Origin: Deltaproteobacteria bacterium
GTDB taxonomy: Bacteria > Desulfobacterota > Dissulfuribacteria > Dissulfuribacterales > QOAL01
Assembly: GCA_026995935.1 (NCBI GenBank)
Contig: JALWNK010000022.1
Location: 1-64,000, forward strand
Length of the DNA: 64,000 nucleotides
Direction: 5' to 3'
A model generated the notes under the pieces. It had not been told where the DNA came from and ran no database searches. It saw only the letters and a program-made list of their open reading frames with translations. Made by a program: the position numbers and the translations under genes. This document shows positions 23,194 through 34,305 of the stretch, piece after piece (within the stretch, counting starts at the first letter, position 1; each line of letters begins with the position of its first letter).

Positions 23194-24207
23194 TTAATCC
23201 CAGACCCCGTCAATGGCCCCACCGCACTTTGGGCACTTGCCCTGCTCAAGCTTGTTTTCAAGGATGCTGAATCCGTACCTTGCAATTACCATTTCCCCAC
23301 AGGAGGGACAGTAGGTGTTCTCTCCCCCTTCTCCCGGGATATTGCCCTCGTAAACGTATTTCAGCCCTTCTTCAAGCCCGATTTCCCTTGCCCTTCTAAG
23401 GGTCTCCACCGGCGTTGGTGGCCTGTCGAGCATCTTGTAGGTTGGATGAAAGGCCGTTACGTGCCAGGGAATGGATTCTGACACGCCTTTTATGAACCTT
23501 GCAATCTCCCTTAGCTCCGCGTCTGTATCGTTCCAGCCTGGGATAATGAGGGTGGTAACCTCTACCCAGATCCCCAACTCATGCATGAGTTTTATTGAGT
23601 CAAGCACAGGCTCAAGCCTTGCCTTGCAGACCTCCCTGTAGAATTTTTCAGTAAAGGCCTTAAGATCAATGTTTATGGCGTCAAGAAACTGGGTGCTGTG
23701 TTCGCATGTCTCGGGTGTCATGTAGCCGTTACTTACAAAGACGTTCTTGAGCCCCTTTTCCCTGGCCTTGACCCCTGTGTCATAGGCGAATTCGTAGAAA
23801 ATGGTTGGTTCCACATAGGTGTAGCTTATGCTTTTTGAACCACTTGTAATGGCATCTTGTACCACCTGAGCGGGCGTGGCATCCTGGCCGGTTATGGCCC
23901 CATTGTTGAACCTGGGGAACTGGCTTATCTGCCAGTTTTGACAGTGAAGGCACTGAAAGTTGCACCCAACCGTTGATATGGAGTAGGAGCGAGAGCCAGG
24001 AAGAAAGTGAAACAGGGGTTTTTTCTCTATGGGATCAACGTTTTGAGAGATGAGCTTTCCATAGACCAGGCTTTCAAGTGTTCCGTCCCTGTTTTCCCGA
24101 ACCTGGCAAATTCCACGTCTTCCCGGTTTTATCTTGCATCTGTGGGAGCAGAGATTGCACTTAACGCTTTTGTCTTCCTGCCTTTGGTAAAGATACGCCT
24201 CCTTCAT
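23194..24207 (-). CDS. amrS: AmmeMemoRadiSam-system radical SAM protein
   Basis: This 337-residue radical SAM enzyme has the CX3CX2C motif C82-x3-C86-x2-C89 in GCNFQCLHCQNW. It also has an N-terminal extra cysteine cluster (CNLCSHRCKIKPG and GICQVREN) and a C-terminal zinc ribbon (CPSCGEM and CPKCGG). This is the AmrS / PflA-like architecture of the AmmeMemoRadiSam set, whose chemistry has not been established to my knowledge. The partner AmmeMemoRadiSam A (AMMECR1-like) and B (MEMO-like) genes are not adjacent here. It faces the alpha/beta-hydrolase gene convergently, three bases away. Confidence 0.88.
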   Translation of the reverse strand: MKEAYLYQRQEDKSVKCNLCSHRCKIKPGRRGICQVRENRDGTLESLVYGKLISQNVDPIEKKPLFHFLPGSRSYSISTVGCNFQCLHCQNWQISQFPRFNNGAITGQDATPAQVVQDAITSGSKSISYTYVEPTIFYEFAYDTGVKAREKGLKNVFVSNGYMTPETCEHSTQFLDAINIDLKAFTEKFYREVCKARLEPVLDSIKLMHELGIWVEVTTLIIPGWNDTDAELREIARFIKGVSESIPWHVTAFHPTYKMLDRPPTPVETLRRAREIGLEEGLKYVYEGNIPGEGGENTYCPSCGEMVIARYGFSILENKLEQGKCPKCGGAIDGVWD

Positions 24208-24386: not shown

Positions 24387-24854
24387 ATGCAAGAAGTCAT
24401 TGTGGAAAGGGCCTCTATGGCCGTAAGCAGCAGGCCTTCGACTGTTATTACTGCCAGGAGCCTGGGTTCCACCTTGGCAGTCATCGTAACTGACCCGTGT
24501 GCAGGGGTTGCAGGTATAGGGCACTGCGTACTTCCAGGAACATCTGGAAAAAATCAAGCTACGCCCACTGTACTTGAACAAATGAGGGAACTTTTCAAGC
24601 ACATGCTTCAAGAAGGGGCATCTGCCAAGGATATGAAGGTGTTCTTGTGTGGAGCCGCTACCTTTCTGCATGAACCAAAGGAGATGGCCCTGGGGGTAAA
24701 GCTTTATCAAAAGGCAGTCAAGGCCCTTGAGAAAAATGGCCTTTCCGCAAGTGGAGAGCACGTGGGAGGCCCCCTAAACAGGAGCGTCTCCGTGGAGGTA
24801 GGCTCCGCAAATGCCCGCGTTATTCTTCCAGATAAAAAGGAGATCCTGATATGA
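24387..24854 (+). CDS. CheD-like protein lacking the catalytic cysteine
   Basis: This 155-residue protein has the fold signature of CheD, the chemoreceptor glutamine deamidase. The expected block LGSC...D...G..H..LP is present as SLGSTLAVIVTDP followed by GVAGIGHCVLPG, and the later VFLCGAATFL and SGEHVGGPLNRSVSVEV segments match CheD. The catalytic cysteine is replaced by Thr, while the histidine is kept. By family knowledge such a protein should not deamidate receptors and may act only as a binding partner. CAGGAG precedes the ATG. Its stop overlaps the start of an HDOD-domain gene (ATGA), so the two are coupled. No chemotaxis operon is nearby. Confidence 0.8.
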   Translation: MQEVIVERASMAVSSRPSTVITARSLGSTLAVIVTDPCAGVAGIGHCVLPGTSGKNQATPTVLEQMRELFKHMLQEGASAKDMKVFLCGAATFLHEPKEMALGVKLYQKAVKALEKNGLSASGEHVGGPLNRSVSVEVGSANARVILPDKKEILI

Positions 24855-25723
24855 ATACAGCCCTGTGTCCAGATTTTACCCTTGAGGCGGTATATGAATC
24901 CATGGCCTCACTTCCTGTCTTTCCCAAGATTGTCCATGAGGCGCTTCGCGTCCTGGACAATCCGGAGAAAAACATTTCCGACGTGGCAAAGATCATCAAA
25001 CTGGACCATGGGCTTGTTGCAAATATTCTAAAACTGACAAATTCTGCCATGTTTGGTCTCAGCCAGCAGGTCTCCGACCTTGAAACCGCCCTGGCCCTCC
25101 TAGGACAAAACAGGATCAGGGAGGTCCTCATAGCAAGTGCAGCAATGCCGTATCTTTCAAGGGACCTTCACGGCTACGAGATGTCGCCGGAGGATCTTTG
25201 TTTTCATTCCGTAGGTTGCGCCATGATTTCCGAGGTGGTGAGTCAGAGGCTTGGTTTTGGCCGGTCTGCAGAGCTTTTTACTGCAGCAATCCTCCATGAT
25301 GTAGGGAAGATTGTTCTTGATATCTATGTTGGTCCCAGGCTCTTGGAGGTGCTTGATCGGTCAAGGCGTGATGACAGCGATTTTTCCGTTGCAGAATGGG
25401 AGGTTATTGGGACTGATCATGCAGTTGCAGGCTCCTCCATCCTCCAGCAGTGGGAATTCCCCAGGGACATCTGCAGGGCGGTTCGCACCCATCACGATCC
25501 TGATCTCTACATCCAAAACAGGCTTTCGGCCATGCTTGCCTTTTGTAACATCCTGGCCGTCCAGCTTGGCCTTGGTGTGGGGGCAGACGGTTTCAGGTAC
25601 AGGATCTCTGATGAGCTATTGTACGTTCTAGGATGTGATGAGAAGGACTATCTGGATTGTTTGGAGCTTTCCTTAAGGGCCTTGGAGGATGCTAGAGAGG
25701 TTATTAACCTCATATACGCCTGA
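24851..25723 (+). CDS. HDOD-domain signalling protein, coupled to the CheD-like gene
   Basis: This 290-residue protein is almost entirely an HDOD domain (about residues 15-215), an HD-GYP-related module thought to act as a signalling scaffold. It has the helix pattern LPVFPKIVHEALRVLDNPEKN, ILKLTNSAMFGLSQQ and an HD-like AAILHDVGKIVLD motif. The HD pair is intact in this copy. The ATG overlaps the stop of the CheD-like gene, so equal synthesis is likely and a complex is plausible. Two more HDOD proteins lie within the next 9 kb. Confidence 0.88.
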   Translation: MNTALCPDFTLEAVYESMASLPVFPKIVHEALRVLDNPEKNISDVAKIIKLDHGLVANILKLTNSAMFGLSQQVSDLETALALLGQNRIREVLIASAAMPYLSRDLHGYEMSPEDLCFHSVGCAMISEVVSQRLGFGRSAELFTAAILHDVGKIVLDIYVGPRLLEVLDRSRRDDSDFSVAEWEVIGTDHAVAGSSILQQWEFPRDICRAVRTHHDPDLYIQNRLSAMLAFCNILAVQLGLGVGADGFRYRISDELLYVLGCDEKDYLDCLELSLRALEDAREVINLIYA

Positions 25724-25774: not shown

Positions 25775-26485
25775 TTAAATGTCTTTCAGGGGGCACTTAT
25801 GGCAAACAGGCCTTCTTTTTTTGCAAAATTCCTTGCCCAATCGCACATAAAGGGCGTGAAATTCATTGAAGAGGCAGGTATCAACGGGAAGGTTGTCCAT
25901 GAAGAGTTCCTGTATGTCATGATAATCTGCCAATGCAGGGTCGATCAATTCATGGTTTGAGAGGACTCTAACGGTGTAGGCATCTACAACAAAAACGGGT
26001 TTACCGAGTGCATACAAGAGTATGCTGTCTGCAGTTTCAGGTCCAATTCCGTGGATTTCGAGGAGCATTTGGCGAAGCTGGGTGGTTTCCGCCTGTGCCA
26101 TTAGCTCCATGTTGCCTTGAAAGACATCTTCGAGAAACTTGACAAAGCATTTTAGCCTCTTCGCCTTTACGTTGTAGTAGCCGGCAGGCCTTATGAGCCC
26201 TGCAAGCATGGCGGGTGGAAGTTCAAGGATGGCCCTGGGTTCAAGAAGTTTTTGTTTCTTTAGGTTGTCAATGGCCTTCTCCACGTTTTGCCAGTTGGTG
26301 TTTTGTGTGAGTATGGCACCAACGGCGATTTCAAAGGGTGTCTGTCCTGGCCACCAGTACTGCGGACCAAAATGGTCATAGAGCCGCCAGAACATATCCA
26401 GTAGCACTTCAGAGGCCCCTGAAGGCCTGAATTCAGCTATTACGGCCTCAAGATGGGATCTTTTACATGCTGGTTGCCGTTTCAA
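25775..26485 (-). CDS. HhH-GPD DNA glycosylase, MagIII/MpgII-like
   Basis: This 236-residue protein has the HhH-GPD fold of the endonuclease III superfamily. GAILTQNTNWQNVEKAI and the hairpin EIHGIGPETADSILLYALG are followed by the catalytic aspartate in FVVDAYTVRVL. Glu occupies the position of the lyase lysine (GxGxK), so it should be a monofunctional glycosylase. Overall it resembles the 3-methyladenine glycosylases MagIII and MpgII. Three cysteines of the C-x6-C-x2-C iron-sulfur loop are present (FCKKRRPVCHKC), but the protein ends before the fourth would occur. It starts inside the end of the HDOD gene (23-base overlap). Confidence 0.82.
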   Translation of the reverse strand: MKRQPACKRSHLEAVIAEFRPSGASEVLLDMFWRLYDHFGPQYWWPGQTPFEIAVGAILTQNTNWQNVEKAIDNLKKQKLLEPRAILELPPAMLAGLIRPAGYYNVKAKRLKCFVKFLEDVFQGNMELMAQAETTQLRQMLLEIHGIGPETADSILLYALGKPVFVVDAYTVRVLSNHELIDPALADYHDIQELFMDNLPVDTCLFNEFHALYVRLGKEFCKKRRPVCHKCPLKDI

Positions 26486-27590
26486 TTAGTCTCTCGGTCT
26501 CCTTCAGGTCCTGAATCAAGTCCTTGGTCAGGAGCCTATTAGGAGACCATTTTTTGTCAAGGCCAATGGATTTTAGAAATTCGGGATTGATTGCCATGGC
26601 GCAGGGCTTTGAGTCCCAGTACCCTGCCACGTTGGCCAGCTGATCGCTAAGGGCAACAAGGGCAGTTGGAAGTTTTGCGTGGGCGGGGATGTCGTCCCAG
26701 TTGGAAAACGAGGGATGGTGGTGATAGGAAATGGTTGTGCAGAGGATTTCAGGGAGTTTCCAGTAGGTGGTGAGAAGATAAGCCATACGGCAGTGATCTA
26801 TGCCGTAGGCCTGATCTTCCCTGACTACTGAAACCAGTGAGCACTCTTCCTCTTCGGAATCCTTATCTTGACCCTGATCGGGACTCAAGCCCCGTAATAG
26901 AAACTTTCCAACATCGTGAAGCAGGGAACATGTGATAACAGTTGGCCCTATCTCATTTCCCCTGCTTCCTATCTTGAAAAGTACATGCTTGGCACATGTG
27001 GCAGTTGCTGCAGCGTGTCTCCAGAGGGCCTTGATTTCAGAAGGTGATATTTCAGCCAGGGATTTCAAGGCAGACTGGGCAAGGAGCTGGTTTACAAGGA
27101 TCCACAGCTCATTAAAACCAAGGATGACCACTGCGTGTTGTAGGGAGGTGATTCTTTGAGTGCAAAAGGCCGCAGAATTGACCACCCTCAAAACCTTAGA
27201 TGAAAGAACCGGGTCTGTGGATACCAGTTGGACGATCCTCTTGATGCTCGTTTCCGGATCGCTTAAAAGATGGGAAAGCTCCATGATGGCACTGGGAAGT
27301 TCCGGGCTCTGTCTGATTATGTCAATAAGGGCTGCATCTTCATCGGTTATGGGTCGTTCCGGGCTTGGTCTCGAATATTCCAGATAATTGGCAAACCGTA
27401 CGCCCTCTATTTCATCGTCCTGGTCCACGGGGGTTTCGGGGATATCAAGAGAATCTTCGTCTTGTTCCGGGGAAGCAGAATACTCGAAAGCGGAAGCGCC
27501 CTTGCTGGTGTCGGCCCTGTTGAATACGAGCAAGAGCAGAATAATTACTGCAACAGAAGAAACCGATGCGATCACAAGTGCAAGGGCCAA
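26463..27590 (-). CDS. Membrane-anchored HDOD-domain protein
   Basis: This 375-residue protein has one N-terminal membrane helix (residues 1-22), an acidic linker with repeated Asp/Glu, and an HDOD domain at about residues 85-290. The domain includes SPELPSAIMELSHLL, KVLRVVNSAAF and TCSLLHDVGKFLL, so the HD pair is present. It starts with TTG at 27590, preceded by AGGAGG eight bases upstream. The gene for a small membrane protein lies 15 bases upstream on the same strand, and the DNA glycosylase gene overlaps its end. Role unknown; probably signal scaffolding at the membrane. Confidence 0.85.
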   Translation of the reverse strand: MALALVIASVSSVAVIILLLLVFNRADTSKGASAFEYSASPEQDEDSLDIPETPVDQDDEIEGVRFANYLEYSRPSPERPITDEDAALIDIIRQSPELPSAIMELSHLLSDPETSIKRIVQLVSTDPVLSSKVLRVVNSAAFCTQRITSLQHAVVILGFNELWILVNQLLAQSALKSLAEISPSEIKALWRHAAATATCAKHVLFKIGSRGNEIGPTVITCSLLHDVGKFLLRGLSPDQGQDKDSEEEECSLVSVVREDQAYGIDHCRMAYLLTTYWKLPEILCTTISYHHHPSFSNWDDIPAHAKLPTALVALSDQLANVAGYWDSKPCAMAINPEFLKSIGLDKKWSPNRLLTKDLIQDLKETERLIETATSM

Positions 27591-29865: not shown

Positions 29866-31738
29866 CGTTGGTCTTTTTCTCCTGTCCCTCAAGCACTGAA
29901 TTGACCACCTCAAATAGTTCCTTCATCTTGAATGGCTTTTTGAGGTAGGGAAGATTGTATTTCCTTAAGAAGTTGATGGTTTCTATGTCAGACACTATGC
30001 CTGTGGTAAATACCACCTTTTTTTCATACTCAGGAAACTCCACTAGAAGCCTTTCGTAGAGTTCCATACCGTTCATTTCGGGCATTTTGAGGTCTGAAAT
30101 AATAAGATCCACCTTTTGTCTTCTGAGCTTTTCCAGGGCCTCTCTGCCGTTTAAGGCCTTAAGGGTATGAAATTTTTGGGAAAATACCTCAATTAACAGC
30201 TCTGATATCTCATACTCGTCATCCACCACCATGACCCAAGGCTTTCTCGCGAGGTCCAGTTTTACCACATTATTATCCTCTGTGACTATTTCTATACCTG
30301 ATTTTGCTGCATAGGCGGGAAGTTTGATTATAAACTCGGTCATGCCTGGGCGCGAATTGACTTTGATGTCGCCTCCATGTTCCTTTATGATTCCATGGCA
30401 GATGCTGAGTCCAAGTCCTGTTCCATCCTTCTGGGATTTGGTGCTGAAGAAGGGATCAAATATCTTCCTGATTATGTCCTGGGAAATGCCTGGTCCGTCA
30501 TCGGTTATCCTGATTATGACATGGTCGTCCCTGGACTCTGTACATACGGATATTTTGCCTCCGTTTTCCGAAAGGGCATCCACAGCATTTTTCATGACGT
30601 TAGTCACTACCTGCTCGATCTGGTGCGGATCGGCCATGACGTAGGGAATGGATGGTTCAAGCCTCTTTTCTATCCTGATGGACATACCTCCGCTGATATA
30701 GGTAGAGACAAGGTTGCAGGAATTTTCAATTATGTCATTGAGATTGCAGTCAATCTTTGTGGGCTTCTCCCTCCTTGAAAAGAGCAGAAGGGAGTTGACG
30801 ATTCTCTTGGCACCTTCAGACGCCGAACGTATGGCTTCTATGGCCCTTTCAAGTTGCTCCCTGTTCATGTCCGCCGAAAGTATCTCTGCGTAGCCGAGAA
30901 TGGGCGTGAGTTTATTGTTGAGTTCGTGTGCAACAGAGGCCATCATCTCTCCCATGGTGGCCAGACGTTCAGCCCGCACCAGTCTGTTCCACAGGATGTC
31001 CCGCTCGGTGATCTCCCGGCATATGAAAATAACACCGTTTTCAATGTGTTCTCCCAGGGTATTGGCAAGCCTGAGTTCCACAGGCACGGTGTTTCCCTTG
31101 CAATCGCGAAATACCACCTCCTCCATGAAAAACGCCCCCGGAGACCGATTCAGAAGCTCAATCTTTGTTTGCAGCTGTTCCTGGAAGCCAAAGTCCACGA
31201 AATCGAGTATGGGCCTTTTTATGAGATTTTTTAAGGGGCAATTAAGTATGGCAGCCATCTTTGGGTTGGCATATTGAATGAGTCCATCTTTCACAATGAG
31301 ATAGCCCTCGTTCATATCCTCTATGAGGGCCCTGTAGCGTTCCTTGGCCAGGGCGATTTCATCCATCATTGAGATATGTTCCAGGGCCCTCTGGAGAGCA
31401 TGGTATAGAAGGTCGAACTCAAAGGGCTTCATCACGTAATCAAAGGCGCCGTTTCTAAGGGCGTCCACGGCATTATCCAGGGAGGCATGTCCAGTCATCA
31501 CTATGACCCTGGTTTTTGGGCAATATTCCCGGCAGTATTTTAATATGTCAGAGCCTGTCCCATCTTCCAGGTAGTAGTCTGTTACCACAATGTCAAAGAA
31601 ACGTTCAGCCAGCAATGACAGGCCTTCGCTGACACCCGGGCAGACAGTGGCATGAAAGCCAGAGTGATCCAGCAGAAGCTTAAGGGTGTCCCTCATCTCC
31701 TTTTCGTCATCAACTACCAGGACTGTCCCAGAAATCAT
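29849..31738 (-). CDS. REC-PAS-histidine kinase-REC hybrid sensor
   Basis: This 629-residue hybrid has an N-terminal receiver (Asp54 in VVTDYYLEDG), a PAS domain (about 135-245) and HisKA with His271 in VAHELNNKLTPILGY. HATPase boxes MKNAVDALSEN, ITDDGPGISQ and GLGLSICHGII follow, then a C-terminal receiver with DLIISDLKMPEMNG. There is no membrane segment. Its ATG overlaps the stop of the HDOD-GAF-PAS kinase gene by four bases, so the two kinases are coupled and may form a phosphorelay. It ends over the M48 gene. Confidence 0.9.
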   Translation of the reverse strand: MISGTVLVVDDEKEMRDTLKLLLDHSGFHATVCPGVSEGLSLLAERFFDIVVTDYYLEDGTGSDILKYCREYCPKTRVIVMTGHASLDNAVDALRNGAFDYVMKPFEFDLLYHALQRALEHISMMDEIALAKERYRALIEDMNEGYLIVKDGLIQYANPKMAAILNCPLKNLIKRPILDFVDFGFQEQLQTKIELLNRSPGAFFMEEVVFRDCKGNTVPVELRLANTLGEHIENGVIFICREITERDILWNRLVRAERLATMGEMMASVAHELNNKLTPILGYAEILSADMNREQLERAIEAIRSASEGAKRIVNSLLLFSRREKPTKIDCNLNDIIENSCNLVSTYISGGMSIRIEKRLEPSIPYVMADPHQIEQVVTNVMKNAVDALSENGGKISVCTESRDDHVIIRITDDGPGISQDIIRKIFDPFFSTKSQKDGTGLGLSICHGIIKEHGGDIKVNSRPGMTEFIIKLPAYAAKSGIEIVTEDNNVVKLDLARKPWVMVVDDEYEISELLIEVFSQKFHTLKALNGREALEKLRRQKVDLIISDLKMPEMNGMELYERLLVEFPEYEKKVVFTTGIVSDIETINFLRKYNLPYLKKPFKMKELFEVVNSVLEGQEKKTNVNGLY

Positions 31739-34305
31739 AAGGTTCCCTCCCCTCCTGAGTCACGTTGACTTGCTACTGGGATCCTGATCAGGAAAAACGC
31801 TCCAAACCCTTCTCTTTCGGTTAAGGATATGTCTCCTCCACAGGCCTTAATAAGACCGTAACAGACAGACAGGCCAAGGCCAGAATTTTCTTTTCCCTTG
31901 GTGGTTACAAAAGGTGAAAATATCTTCCCTTTAATGTCTTCCCTGATTCCTGGGCCTGTGTCTCCAAATTCTACCACAACCTCCAGGTCTTGCTTGTAGG
32001 CCTTGAAAAAGATCTCCCCATCTTCCCCAATGGCCTCTTCTGCGTTTTTGAAAAGGTTTAAAAATATCTGTTTTAATTCATCCTCGGAAATGGCAACCGC
32101 CGGTAATTGCCCTGAAACCTCTTTTCTTATGCCAATCCTTTTTTCTTTGAGTCCAGGACCAACCAATGCCTCCAACTCTGATAACACCTCGTCTACCTTT
32201 GCAGCAGGAGCACGTGATGACATGGAAGCTGGTCTATTTTGTCTTGAAAAGTCACTCAACTTCCTGATAATCCTGGTAACCCGGTCTATTTCAGAACCAA
32301 TGGCGTCTATTGTCTTGTCCTCGATCTTGCCGGTCTCTTTCTGTATCTTGAGAATCTTTAACAGGTTTTTAATAATTCCAAGGGGATTGTTGACCTCATG
32401 AACCACCTTTCTGGCCACTTCGCTTGCGGCCCCCATTCTTTCTGTGAGTATGAGTTTTTCCTGGGCCCTTTTCAGCTCTTGTGTCTTTTTGACCAGTTCT
32501 TTTTCAAGCCAAAGGGCGCGTTTTTGTCTTTCCGATTCAAGCAGTACAGAATCTGTAATATCCCTGATGAAAAACAGAAGTCTCTCAGTCCCTCCAACCA
32601 CCAGGGGTGTCACCTGGATATCCAGCCACACGAATTTGCCGTCTGGCAGCTCTATTTTTTTTTGTGCAATGGGGATAATTTGTGACTTGTGTTCGAAACG
32701 GATAGTAGCAGGGTTTAGGTCCTCACCTAAAAGGGCGGAAATGCTTAGTTCCTCCAGCATCCTTGAACTTAGGCCAAGAAGGTTCTTTCCTTGCGGGTTC
32801 ACATAACTGATTGTGCCAGAGCTGTCCGTTATGACGATTCCCATGGGGCACTTCTTTACCAGGGCCTCGTTTAAGATATGCTCCTTTTCCCACAGTTTTC
32901 TGTATGAGATCCCCTTTAGGACACTGGCAATTTCCCTGGCCAGGAGCTGAATGAGCCCGAGCCCCTCCCTGATTTCTGGCCACTTTTCTTTCTCAACCTT
33001 CAGGGCGAGCCCCCCTATCTTGTCCCGGCCAGCCACAAGGGGAACAGCAAGGAAATCTCCATGAAGGTATTCCCTTATCTGTTTATCTATTATGTGGATA
33101 GATTCTTTTTGAAGGTATTCCCGGCTGAATACCGGTTTGCCGCTGTCAAAGGCGCGGTTCCAAATGGACTCCTTAAGGTTGACTACGAGGATCTGGCTGG
33201 CAAGAGAGTCATCTTCTGAACCTCTTGCACATACCCCCTTCAGACAGTTGTTGTAATATTGAAACAAAAGGCCGCCTTGTATCTCGGTGAGAGTAGCAAA
33301 GGCAGTAAAAAGGGCATCGTGGAGATCTTTTTGCGAGCGTACCGCAAGAAGAGATTCGAGCACACCTACCACTGTGGCAAGGTCCATGCTCTTGTCCCTG
33401 AGGAGGGAAGATGCATGAGGTTGATCCTTGAGCTTTGGGGTCTCCTTCCTCTCTCCCAGGTCAAGACCAAGTTCTTGAGCCGTATTTTTTAGCATGGTCC
33501 TGACCTTGTGGAAGGTGTCTTGGAGCTCTTGTTCACTTGGTTGAAATCCCAACATCCTGAACCGCTCCAGGATTTCCGTAATTGAACTGCTGCTTTTCCC
33601 TGTCAAATAGTGAGCTGAAATGTCAGACAGATATACTATGCGGAGAAAAGGTGTTGCCTGCGCCAGTTCATGGGGGTCTTCATGATGAAAACGGACAGCT
33701 GTTCTAATAGTGACAGGTAAACGCCACTGTTTAACCAGTTCATGGCCTTCTACAGTGTGGTCCCGTCCACAAATCTTGGTTTCCGATTCCAGTATCGTCT
33801 GGCCCGTCCTTGGGTTCTGAACGATTTTGTCATAGACATCAGGCCATCTCATAACGAGGGAAAGCTGGCCAATATCGTGGAGTAGTCCGGCCAGGAAGGC
33901 CTCTTCTTGAGGAAAAGCCAGTTCAAGCAGATTTACAAGTTCCTTGCATAAAAGGCCACAGCAGAGACTGTGGTTCCAGAATTCTGCCAAAGAAAAGTTT
34001 TCCGGGACATTAATGGAAGAAAGGGTCTGACAGACACCAGCCGTTATTGCAACATGCCTCAATGTTGAAATGCCCAGGTTTAAAGCGGCCTGAGTAATGG
34101 ATTTGACAGGTTGACCCGGGTTGATAAGGGCGGAATTGGCTATTTTCAGTATGTGTGTGCAAAGGGATGGGTCCTTGCTGGCAAGGTCCGCCAATTCTTT
34201 GACAGATTTTTTTTCATCGTCAGTAGCTTCAATTAGTTTGAGGATAACTGTAGGGAGTGAGGGTAGTACAGGTCTTGGTAATGTTTTTGGACAAGTCGTG
34301 GTCAT
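31735..34305 (-). CDS. HDOD-GAF-PAS-histidine kinase
   Basis: This 856-residue soluble protein begins with an HDOD domain (about 10-215) containing ILKIANSALINPG and AGLLHDIGQLSLV. It continues with a GAF-type domain (about 310-460) and a PAS domain (about 480-595). The kinase core then has VVHEVNNPLGIIKNLL as H box and LFKNAEEAIGEDGE, FGDTGPGIRED and GLGLSVCYGLIKACGG as ATP boxes. An HDOD head on a histidine kinase is unusual but occurs in Desulfobacterota. It is the first gene of the pair with the hybrid kinase. A TTGAAA / TAGTTA promoter lies upstream. Confidence 0.9.
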   Translation of the reverse strand: MTTTCPKTLPRPVLPSLPTVILKLIEATDDEKKSVKELADLASKDPSLCTHILKIANSALINPGQPVKSITQAALNLGISTLRHVAITAGVCQTLSSINVPENFSLAEFWNHSLCCGLLCKELVNLLELAFPQEEAFLAGLLHDIGQLSLVMRWPDVYDKIVQNPRTGQTILESETKICGRDHTVEGHELVKQWRLPVTIRTAVRFHHEDPHELAQATPFLRIVYLSDISAHYLTGKSSSSITEILERFRMLGFQPSEQELQDTFHKVRTMLKNTAQELGLDLGERKETPKLKDQPHASSLLRDKSMDLATVVGVLESLLAVRSQKDLHDALFTAFATLTEIQGGLLFQYYNNCLKGVCARGSEDDSLASQILVVNLKESIWNRAFDSGKPVFSREYLQKESIHIIDKQIREYLHGDFLAVPLVAGRDKIGGLALKVEKEKWPEIREGLGLIQLLAREIASVLKGISYRKLWEKEHILNEALVKKCPMGIVITDSSGTISYVNPQGKNLLGLSSRMLEELSISALLGEDLNPATIRFEHKSQIIPIAQKKIELPDGKFVWLDIQVTPLVVGGTERLLFFIRDITDSVLLESERQKRALWLEKELVKKTQELKRAQEKLILTERMGAASEVARKVVHEVNNPLGIIKNLLKILKIQKETGKIEDKTIDAIGSEIDRVTRIIRKLSDFSRQNRPASMSSRAPAAKVDEVLSELEALVGPGLKEKRIGIRKEVSGQLPAVAISEDELKQIFLNLFKNAEEAIGEDGEIFFKAYKQDLEVVVEFGDTGPGIREDIKGKIFSPFVTTKGKENSGLGLSVCYGLIKACGGDISLTEREGFGAFFLIRIPVASQRDSGGEGTL

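Follow-up and report, generated by a model that had tools for sequence, protein, structure and literature searches.

The CheD-like gene and its HDOD partner

CheD is a chemoreceptor glutamine deamidase whose known partner is CheC; to our knowledge, the roles of HDOD proteins are mostly unknown. The stretch of DNA analysed here (the window, 64,000 nucleotides from a Deltaproteobacteria bacterium of the order Dissulfuribacterales) carries one gene of each kind, side by side on the forward strand. The upstream gene (24387-24854, +) encodes a CheD-fold protein of 155 aa without the full catalytic triad, and the downstream gene (24851-25723, +) encodes an HDOD protein of 290 aa. Both coding sequences score above the curated Pfam cut-offs, i.e. 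37.3 bits against the CheD family PF03975 (cut-off 25, E 3e-9) and 165 bits against PF08668 (cut-off 22.9, E 2e-48). The stop codon of the first gene overlaps the start codon of the second, as a preliminary description of this DNA had stated; the overlap is 4 bp long (ATGA), and both starts are preceded by an AGGAG-like stretch. The AlphaFold2 model of the CheD-like protein has a mean pLDDT of 92, and its best match in the PDB is chain 2f9z_C, the CheD of T. maritima (TM 0.83, E 1.8e-13). The PDB relatives of the HDOD protein are 3hc1 and 3m1t. There is no further PF03975 match in the genome that contains the window.

The preliminary description had also claimed that LGSC reads LGST in a CheD fold that keeps the histidine of GIGH. 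Both motifs are found in the sequence (residues 26-29 and 43-46, respectively), and the fold is supported by PF03975 as well as by the match of the model to 2f9z_C. When aligned with 2f9z and with 58 canonical CheDs, the window protein has Thr29 (codon 24471-24473, +) where the catalytic Cys would be and His46 (codon 24522-24524, +) in the place of the catalytic His, a residue that is kept here and lost in most members of its clade. Six residues before the Cys, canonical CheDs have a conserved Thr which we take to be T21 of T. maritima CheD, a member of the catalytic triad. In the alignment to 2f9z and the canonical rows this position is Ala23 (codon 24453-24455, +). The window protein thus reads A23-T29-H46 where a canonical CheD has T-C-H, i.e. 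two of the three catalytic positions are lost. Judged from these residues, the protein is a CheD family member that lacks defining residues of a functional deamidase, and deamidation by it seems very unlikely. The NCBIfam deamidase models (cut-offs of at least 223 bits) do not discriminate in this respect, since the window protein reaches 52.7 bits at best against a cut-off of 240 and a canonical CheD from a chemotaxis operon (L041) also stays below with 128 bits.

Conservation of the pair and of its residues

Genes of the same type, here termed pseudo-CheDs, are found next to an HDOD gene in 32 of the 46 genomes of the order. An alignment of the clade matched 38 of the 46, and 32 of these 38 were of the pseudo type. 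The distribution follows the families: 32 out of 35 genomes in families f1 and f3-f11 have a pseudo-CheD, and the six matching genomes of family f2 have none, the CheDs that were read there being canonical. Every genome that carries a CheD of this clade has the HDOD gene adjoining it (32/32), so the fixed pairing across genomes proposed earlier does occur, and the gap between the two genes is -4 in 24 of the 30 loci measured. In G021 a pseudo pair (L025) coexists with a canonical one (L033), the latter adjoining a CheR gene and lying close to MCP-signalling matches. In another genome the CheD match is divided between two frames, 102 and 103 aa long, which overlap (G035:C5:146917-147371), possibly because of a frameshift or a sequencing error.

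The Cys position can be read in 31 of the 32 clade members. It is occupied by T (16), A (4), C (4), G (4), S (2) and N (1), the His position by V (16), H (6), I (4), Q (3), L (1) and Y (1), and the Thr position by A (25), T (3), G (2) and V (1). Not one of the 31 rows combines T, C and H. In comparison, Cys and His are each present in 58 of 58 canonical CheDs and Thr in 93% of them; this set includes L107 and leaves out L127, four fragments and seven rows of a second CheD-like type described below. As four of the 31 rows carry a Cys, this residue is not strictly absent from the pseudo-CheD clade, and all four read A-C-V. Within the clade, the His of the window protein is common only to its nearest relatives (L003-L006 and the fragment L008) and to L023.

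The change at the Cys codon could have been an isolated mutation or a sequencing error, which the preliminary description itself had named as a way for its reading to fail. This explanation can be regarded as refuted, for LGST or LGAT is present in every one of the eight congeneric genomes in which the site can be read (L002-L007, L010 and L011), and the other genera of the order have A, G, S or N there. The loss of the Cys is thus real, recurrent and lineage-wide. The further expectation that Thr at this position would recur only next to HDOD genes was not borne out: with 16 of 31 rows carrying T and the rest A, C, G, S or N, the residue is not diagnostic, and CheDs that have the Cys are paired with HDOD just as well.

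The pseudo-CheD clade is under purifying selection. Nine genome pairs were tried, of which three were saturated; the six pairs with unsaturated dS gave omega values of 0.057, 0.078, 0.146, 0.095, 0.148 and 0.174 for the CheD-like gene, the last one from few changes. The clade also has near-invariant residues of its own, namely F93 (90%), P97 (97%), Y107 (87%), H125 (84%), N131 (87%) and E152 (100%). The position of H125 is Asp in 76% of canonical CheDs, and the R-N conserved at positions 105-106 of canonical CheD is lost in the pseudo clade.

One might suppose that translational coupling to the HDOD gene is all that preserves the CheD-like gene, the latter being a remnant in decay. The 4-bp overlap found in most genomes would fit this idea, as would the faster evolution of the CheD-like gene in comparison to its partner (dN 0.148 vs 0.067 for G000/G007). 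It is nevertheless a very improbable explanation, given omega values of 0.06-0.17, matches that have no stops inside and conserve their length, the new near-invariant positions, and a fold that is predicted with high confidence.

The HDOD partners have a signature of their own. The motif HHDPDLY (25490-25510, + in the window) is specific to the clade of the pseudo pairs: it is present in 30 of 32 HDOD proteins encoded next to a pseudo-CheD, the other two having HHDPDIY, and in 0 of 59 HDOD proteins of canonical pairs.

Canonical CheD-HDOD pairs, fusions and the origin of the unit

Canonical CheDs are also paired with HDOD genes. In loci L036-L041 the canonical pair lies among chemotaxis genes. 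MCP, CheW, CheR, receiver (CheY-like) and CheX genes were identified by Pfam in L041 and CheB by Pfam in L040, the other loci being read by eye. In L040 and L041 the order is MCP-CheW-CheR-CheD-HDOD-CheY-CheX, followed by a second CheD or by CheB.

The breadth of this linkage was investigated by scanning a collection of species genomes with an alignment of the HDOD partner only, i.e. with no CheD information. In 62 of the 80 loci found, a CheD gene lies directly upstream of the HDOD gene (9 pseudo, 2 intermediate and 51 canonical), a proportion that is not a rate for HDOD proteins at large because the 80 are the most similar ones. The other 18 loci have no upstream CheD by the rule used, and among them is L107 with a CheD that ends just before the HDOD match. 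The titles of the records, with the labels of metagenome-assembled genomes as deposited, include Thermodesulfobacteriota, Planctomycetota, Cloacimonadota and Neomarinimicrobiota as well as Verrucomicrobia, Kiritimatiellae, Armatimonadota and Krumholzibacteriia. A check from the CheD side, using the 30 loci with the best PF03975 matches from 197 genomes of the phylum, gave a downstream HDOD gene in 17, a fusion in 1 and neither in 12; two of the 17 (L191 and L210) had turned up earlier in the analysis. The HDOD pairing is thus not specific to Cys-less CheDs, since 51 of the 62 paired loci are canonical and lie in che operons where inspected.

The two domains also occur in one polypeptide. CheD-HDOD fusion proteins of about 450 residues, in which LGSC and the His are kept, were found in nine genomes of the order. 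Several of them adjoin CheR (e.g. in G009:C9 the fusion begins at 25.9 kb and CheR lies at 27.6 kb), and the domains were confirmed by Pfam for two fusions, of which one belongs to a named locus from Desulfobacterales. As far as sequences can tell, such fusions argue for a physical association of the two domains; because they keep an active CheD, the association that they indicate is of the active type and not of the pseudo type. In the trees, the fusions (L043-L051, L097:12660-13988 and L187:595-1953) do not group with the pairs of separate genes.

The origin of the pseudo pair was examined with a maximum likelihood tree of 109 CheD sequences, leaving out L008, whose N-terminus is on another contig, and the fragments L090, L125 and L096. 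The 31 pseudo-CheD rows form one clade (support 100/95), and its sister group consists of L082 and L083 (support 98/95). These two CheDs (L082:3528-4019 and L083:6519-6995, Thermodesulfobacteriota) are HDOD-paired and of an intermediate type, i.e. Thr and Cys are kept and the His is replaced by Ile (T-C-I), which makes them useful for testing the order of the catalytic losses. The pseudo clade together with L082 and L083 is nested among canonical HDOD-paired CheDs, and after removal of the three catalytic columns the pseudo clade still occupies one side of a branch (SH-aLRT 90).

The HDOD tree, built from a chosen subset with 26 of the 59 canonical partners, has the same general course. The 32 HDOD partners of the pseudo-CheDs form one clade (support 97) that is sister to the HDOD proteins of L082 and L083 (support 99) and nested among those of canonical pairs, the nearest being the partners in L033 and L035 from the same order. 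Since the nested clades match, both genes descended together from a canonical pair, and since both are nested in canonical pairs, the HDOD pairing is older and wider than the loss of the Cys. The pseudo-CheD/HDOD pair outside che operons is therefore a derived offshoot of a che-operon module. The earlier proposal of a pseudo-CheD/HDOD module outside chemotaxis stands as regards the loss of the Cys and the fixed pair, but the pairing itself derives from a module of che operons.

Neighbourhood and possible role of the pair

Among 28 neighbourhoods, compared by clustering of genes between loci and with Pfam names for the window genes only, no chemotaxis gene was recognised beside the pseudo pair, in agreement with the preliminary description, which had placed the pair outside a chemotaxis operon. 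The pair is the only unit common to all 28. Up to 20 of the 28 loci have upstream genes (radical SAM, hydrolase and others) in common, and the downstream side varies. The shared upstream genes were considered as a hint of another pathway, but they look like background synteny, only the pair being present throughout. In the window, the divergent gene upstream of the pair (23194-24207, -) encodes a radical SAM protein whose cluster is present in 20 of the 28 neighbourhoods. The window encodes two further HDOD proteins, one with an N-terminal hydrophobic stretch (26463-27590, -) and an HDOD-PAS-histidine kinase (31735-34305, -); on the HDOD tree they are at most 28% identical to the HDOD protein of the pair, and 9-10 genomes of the family retain genes in these positions.

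The genome that contains the window has 11 MCP signalling matches, 2 CheA-type matches, 1 CheR and FliG. No match to CheC (PF04509) was found in it using a model of 38 positions, with which a distant CheC could be missed; 10 of the 46 genomes of the order have such a match. The pair and CheR occur jointly in 32 of 35 genomes from families f1 and f3-f11, and neither occurs in the other three, G011, G017 and G018, which are 98, 88 and 55% complete, respectively. Only in G011 is the joint loss firm, and this genome is also without FliG. The pair is present without a FliG match in G025, G031, G033 and G037 (66-89% complete). The phylogenetic profile of the pair, compared with those of CheR, CheA, FliG and MCP, agrees with a chemosensory role, G011 being the one firm loss on which it rests. 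As the unit sits among non-chemotaxis genes, such a role is suggested by ancestry and by this thin co-occurrence, and the pair is probably still tied to chemosensory signalling.

The comparison with known systems is instructive. The window protein has the same fold, the same Pfam family and a similar length as the CheD deamidases (PF03975, 2f9z, B. subtilis CheD), but its Thr and Cys are replaced (in most relatives also the His) and it is not in a che operon. With the canonical CheD-HDOD pair the window pair shares gene order, spacing, the HDOD partner and ancestry on both trees; in the loci inspected the canonical pair adjoins CheR, CheY-like, CheX and CheB genes, whereas the window pair does not. 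According to excerpts of PMC3513319, CheD binding in B. subtilis matters more than the deamidase activity, and excerpts of PMC8235581 report a translational coupling of cheC to cheD. The CheD of B. subtilis is thus likewise encoded with a partner and important mainly through binding; the partner there is CheC, whereas the partner gene of the window pair is HDOD. A stand-alone HD-domain gene has also been described in delta-proteobacterial che clusters, namely the group alpha clusters of Geobacter, but according to the excerpted part of PMC2577667 such clusters are confined to Geobacteraceae, and it does not tie this gene to cheD. In the open-licence literature we found no paper that mentions both CheD and HDOD, no mention of the pair in the titles and abstract beginnings of work on the HDOD domain with chemotaxis or CheY, and, among the papers listed, nothing relevant about a Cys-less or pseudoenzyme CheD. 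The canonical pair of che operons was accordingly not found named in print within that literature, and it may be described elsewhere.

The best reading of these data is, in our view, that a relocated, catalytically dead CheD has taken on a new role, as an adaptor or binding partner of the HDOD protein, the physical binding being inferred. The unit descends from a canonical CheD-HDOD pair within a chemotaxis operon. Its two genes ended up side by side at a site away from any che operon, the CheD lost its Thr-Cys-His triad, and the two proteins then diverged together under purifying selection. The present CheD-like protein would no longer deamidate; its old substrate cleft or a neighbouring surface may bind the HDOD partner, and it may tether this partner to chemoreceptor arrays or control its activity. 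HDOD is the most likely partner because it holds the place of CheC beside CheD and because fusions occur, and a CheD that acts by binding has a precedent in B. subtilis (excerpts of PMC3513319). We lean, with somewhat more than even confidence, towards a module in which CheD and HDOD bind each other without catalysis by CheD and which continues to serve chemosensory signalling. In canonical operons, too, HDOD may replace CheC as the partner of CheD. The wider proposal, that CheD-HDOD is a widespread and undescribed bacterial signalling module with HDOD standing in for CheC, which in one order left the che operon while its deamidase turned into a dedicated non-catalytic regulator of the HDOD protein, is put forward tentatively and at somewhat less than even confidence.

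Two other explanations keep the CheD-like protein functional. It could be a non-catalytic receptor binder that acts alone, the HDOD gene being merely co-transcribed and its product not bound. In its favour, the CheD of B. subtilis acts mostly through its binding to receptors and to CheC (excerpts of PMC3513319), and the genome that contains the window has 11 MCP-type matches with this protein as its only CheD. We consider it unlikely, since the HDOD linkage has outlasted the departure from the che operon and is present in 32 of 32 genomes, the HDOD partners form a matching clade with its own HHDPDLY motif, and CheD-HDOD fusions exist. The protein could also still be an enzyme with an altered active site, using another nucleophile or catalysing another reaction, e.g. 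through H125, E152 or, in four rows, the Cys. Here the Cys site is free to vary (T/A/C/G/S/N, with at least 10 changes inside the clade on the tree built without the catalytic columns), the His is lost in 25 of 31 rows, and no clade-wide nucleophile takes the place of the Cys at that site. The fully kept CheD fold of the AlphaFold2 model, several new near-invariant polar residues and the purifying selection speak for such an enzyme, which on balance seems quite improbable.

That CheD and HDOD are linked across many phyla, and in nature also fused, points to HDOD as a second partner of CheD, and it assigns HDOD proteins a position in chemosensory signalling that can be tested. Moreover, the order supplies a separation-of-function series made by nature, which comprises the active pair, the active fusion, an intermediate that lacks just the His, and the dead CheD; with it the binding role of CheD can be parted from its enzymatic role.

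A second, longer Cys-less CheD-like protein occurs in or near the same che operons (L041:4020-4541, L095:5054-5557, L101:7848-8360, L124:5925-6464, L134:5951-6454, L192:2718-3233 and L193:2688-3200). The motifs at the Cys site of these proteins are LGSA, LGSS, VGSS, TGSG, LGSG and VGTG, and five of them that are in the tree group apart from the clade of the window protein; the Cys was therefore lost independently. Che operons with such a second CheD can hold one active and one Cys-less CheD. Close relatives of the second CheD-like proteins keep LGSC (L040:6203-6682 and L119:5114-5620).
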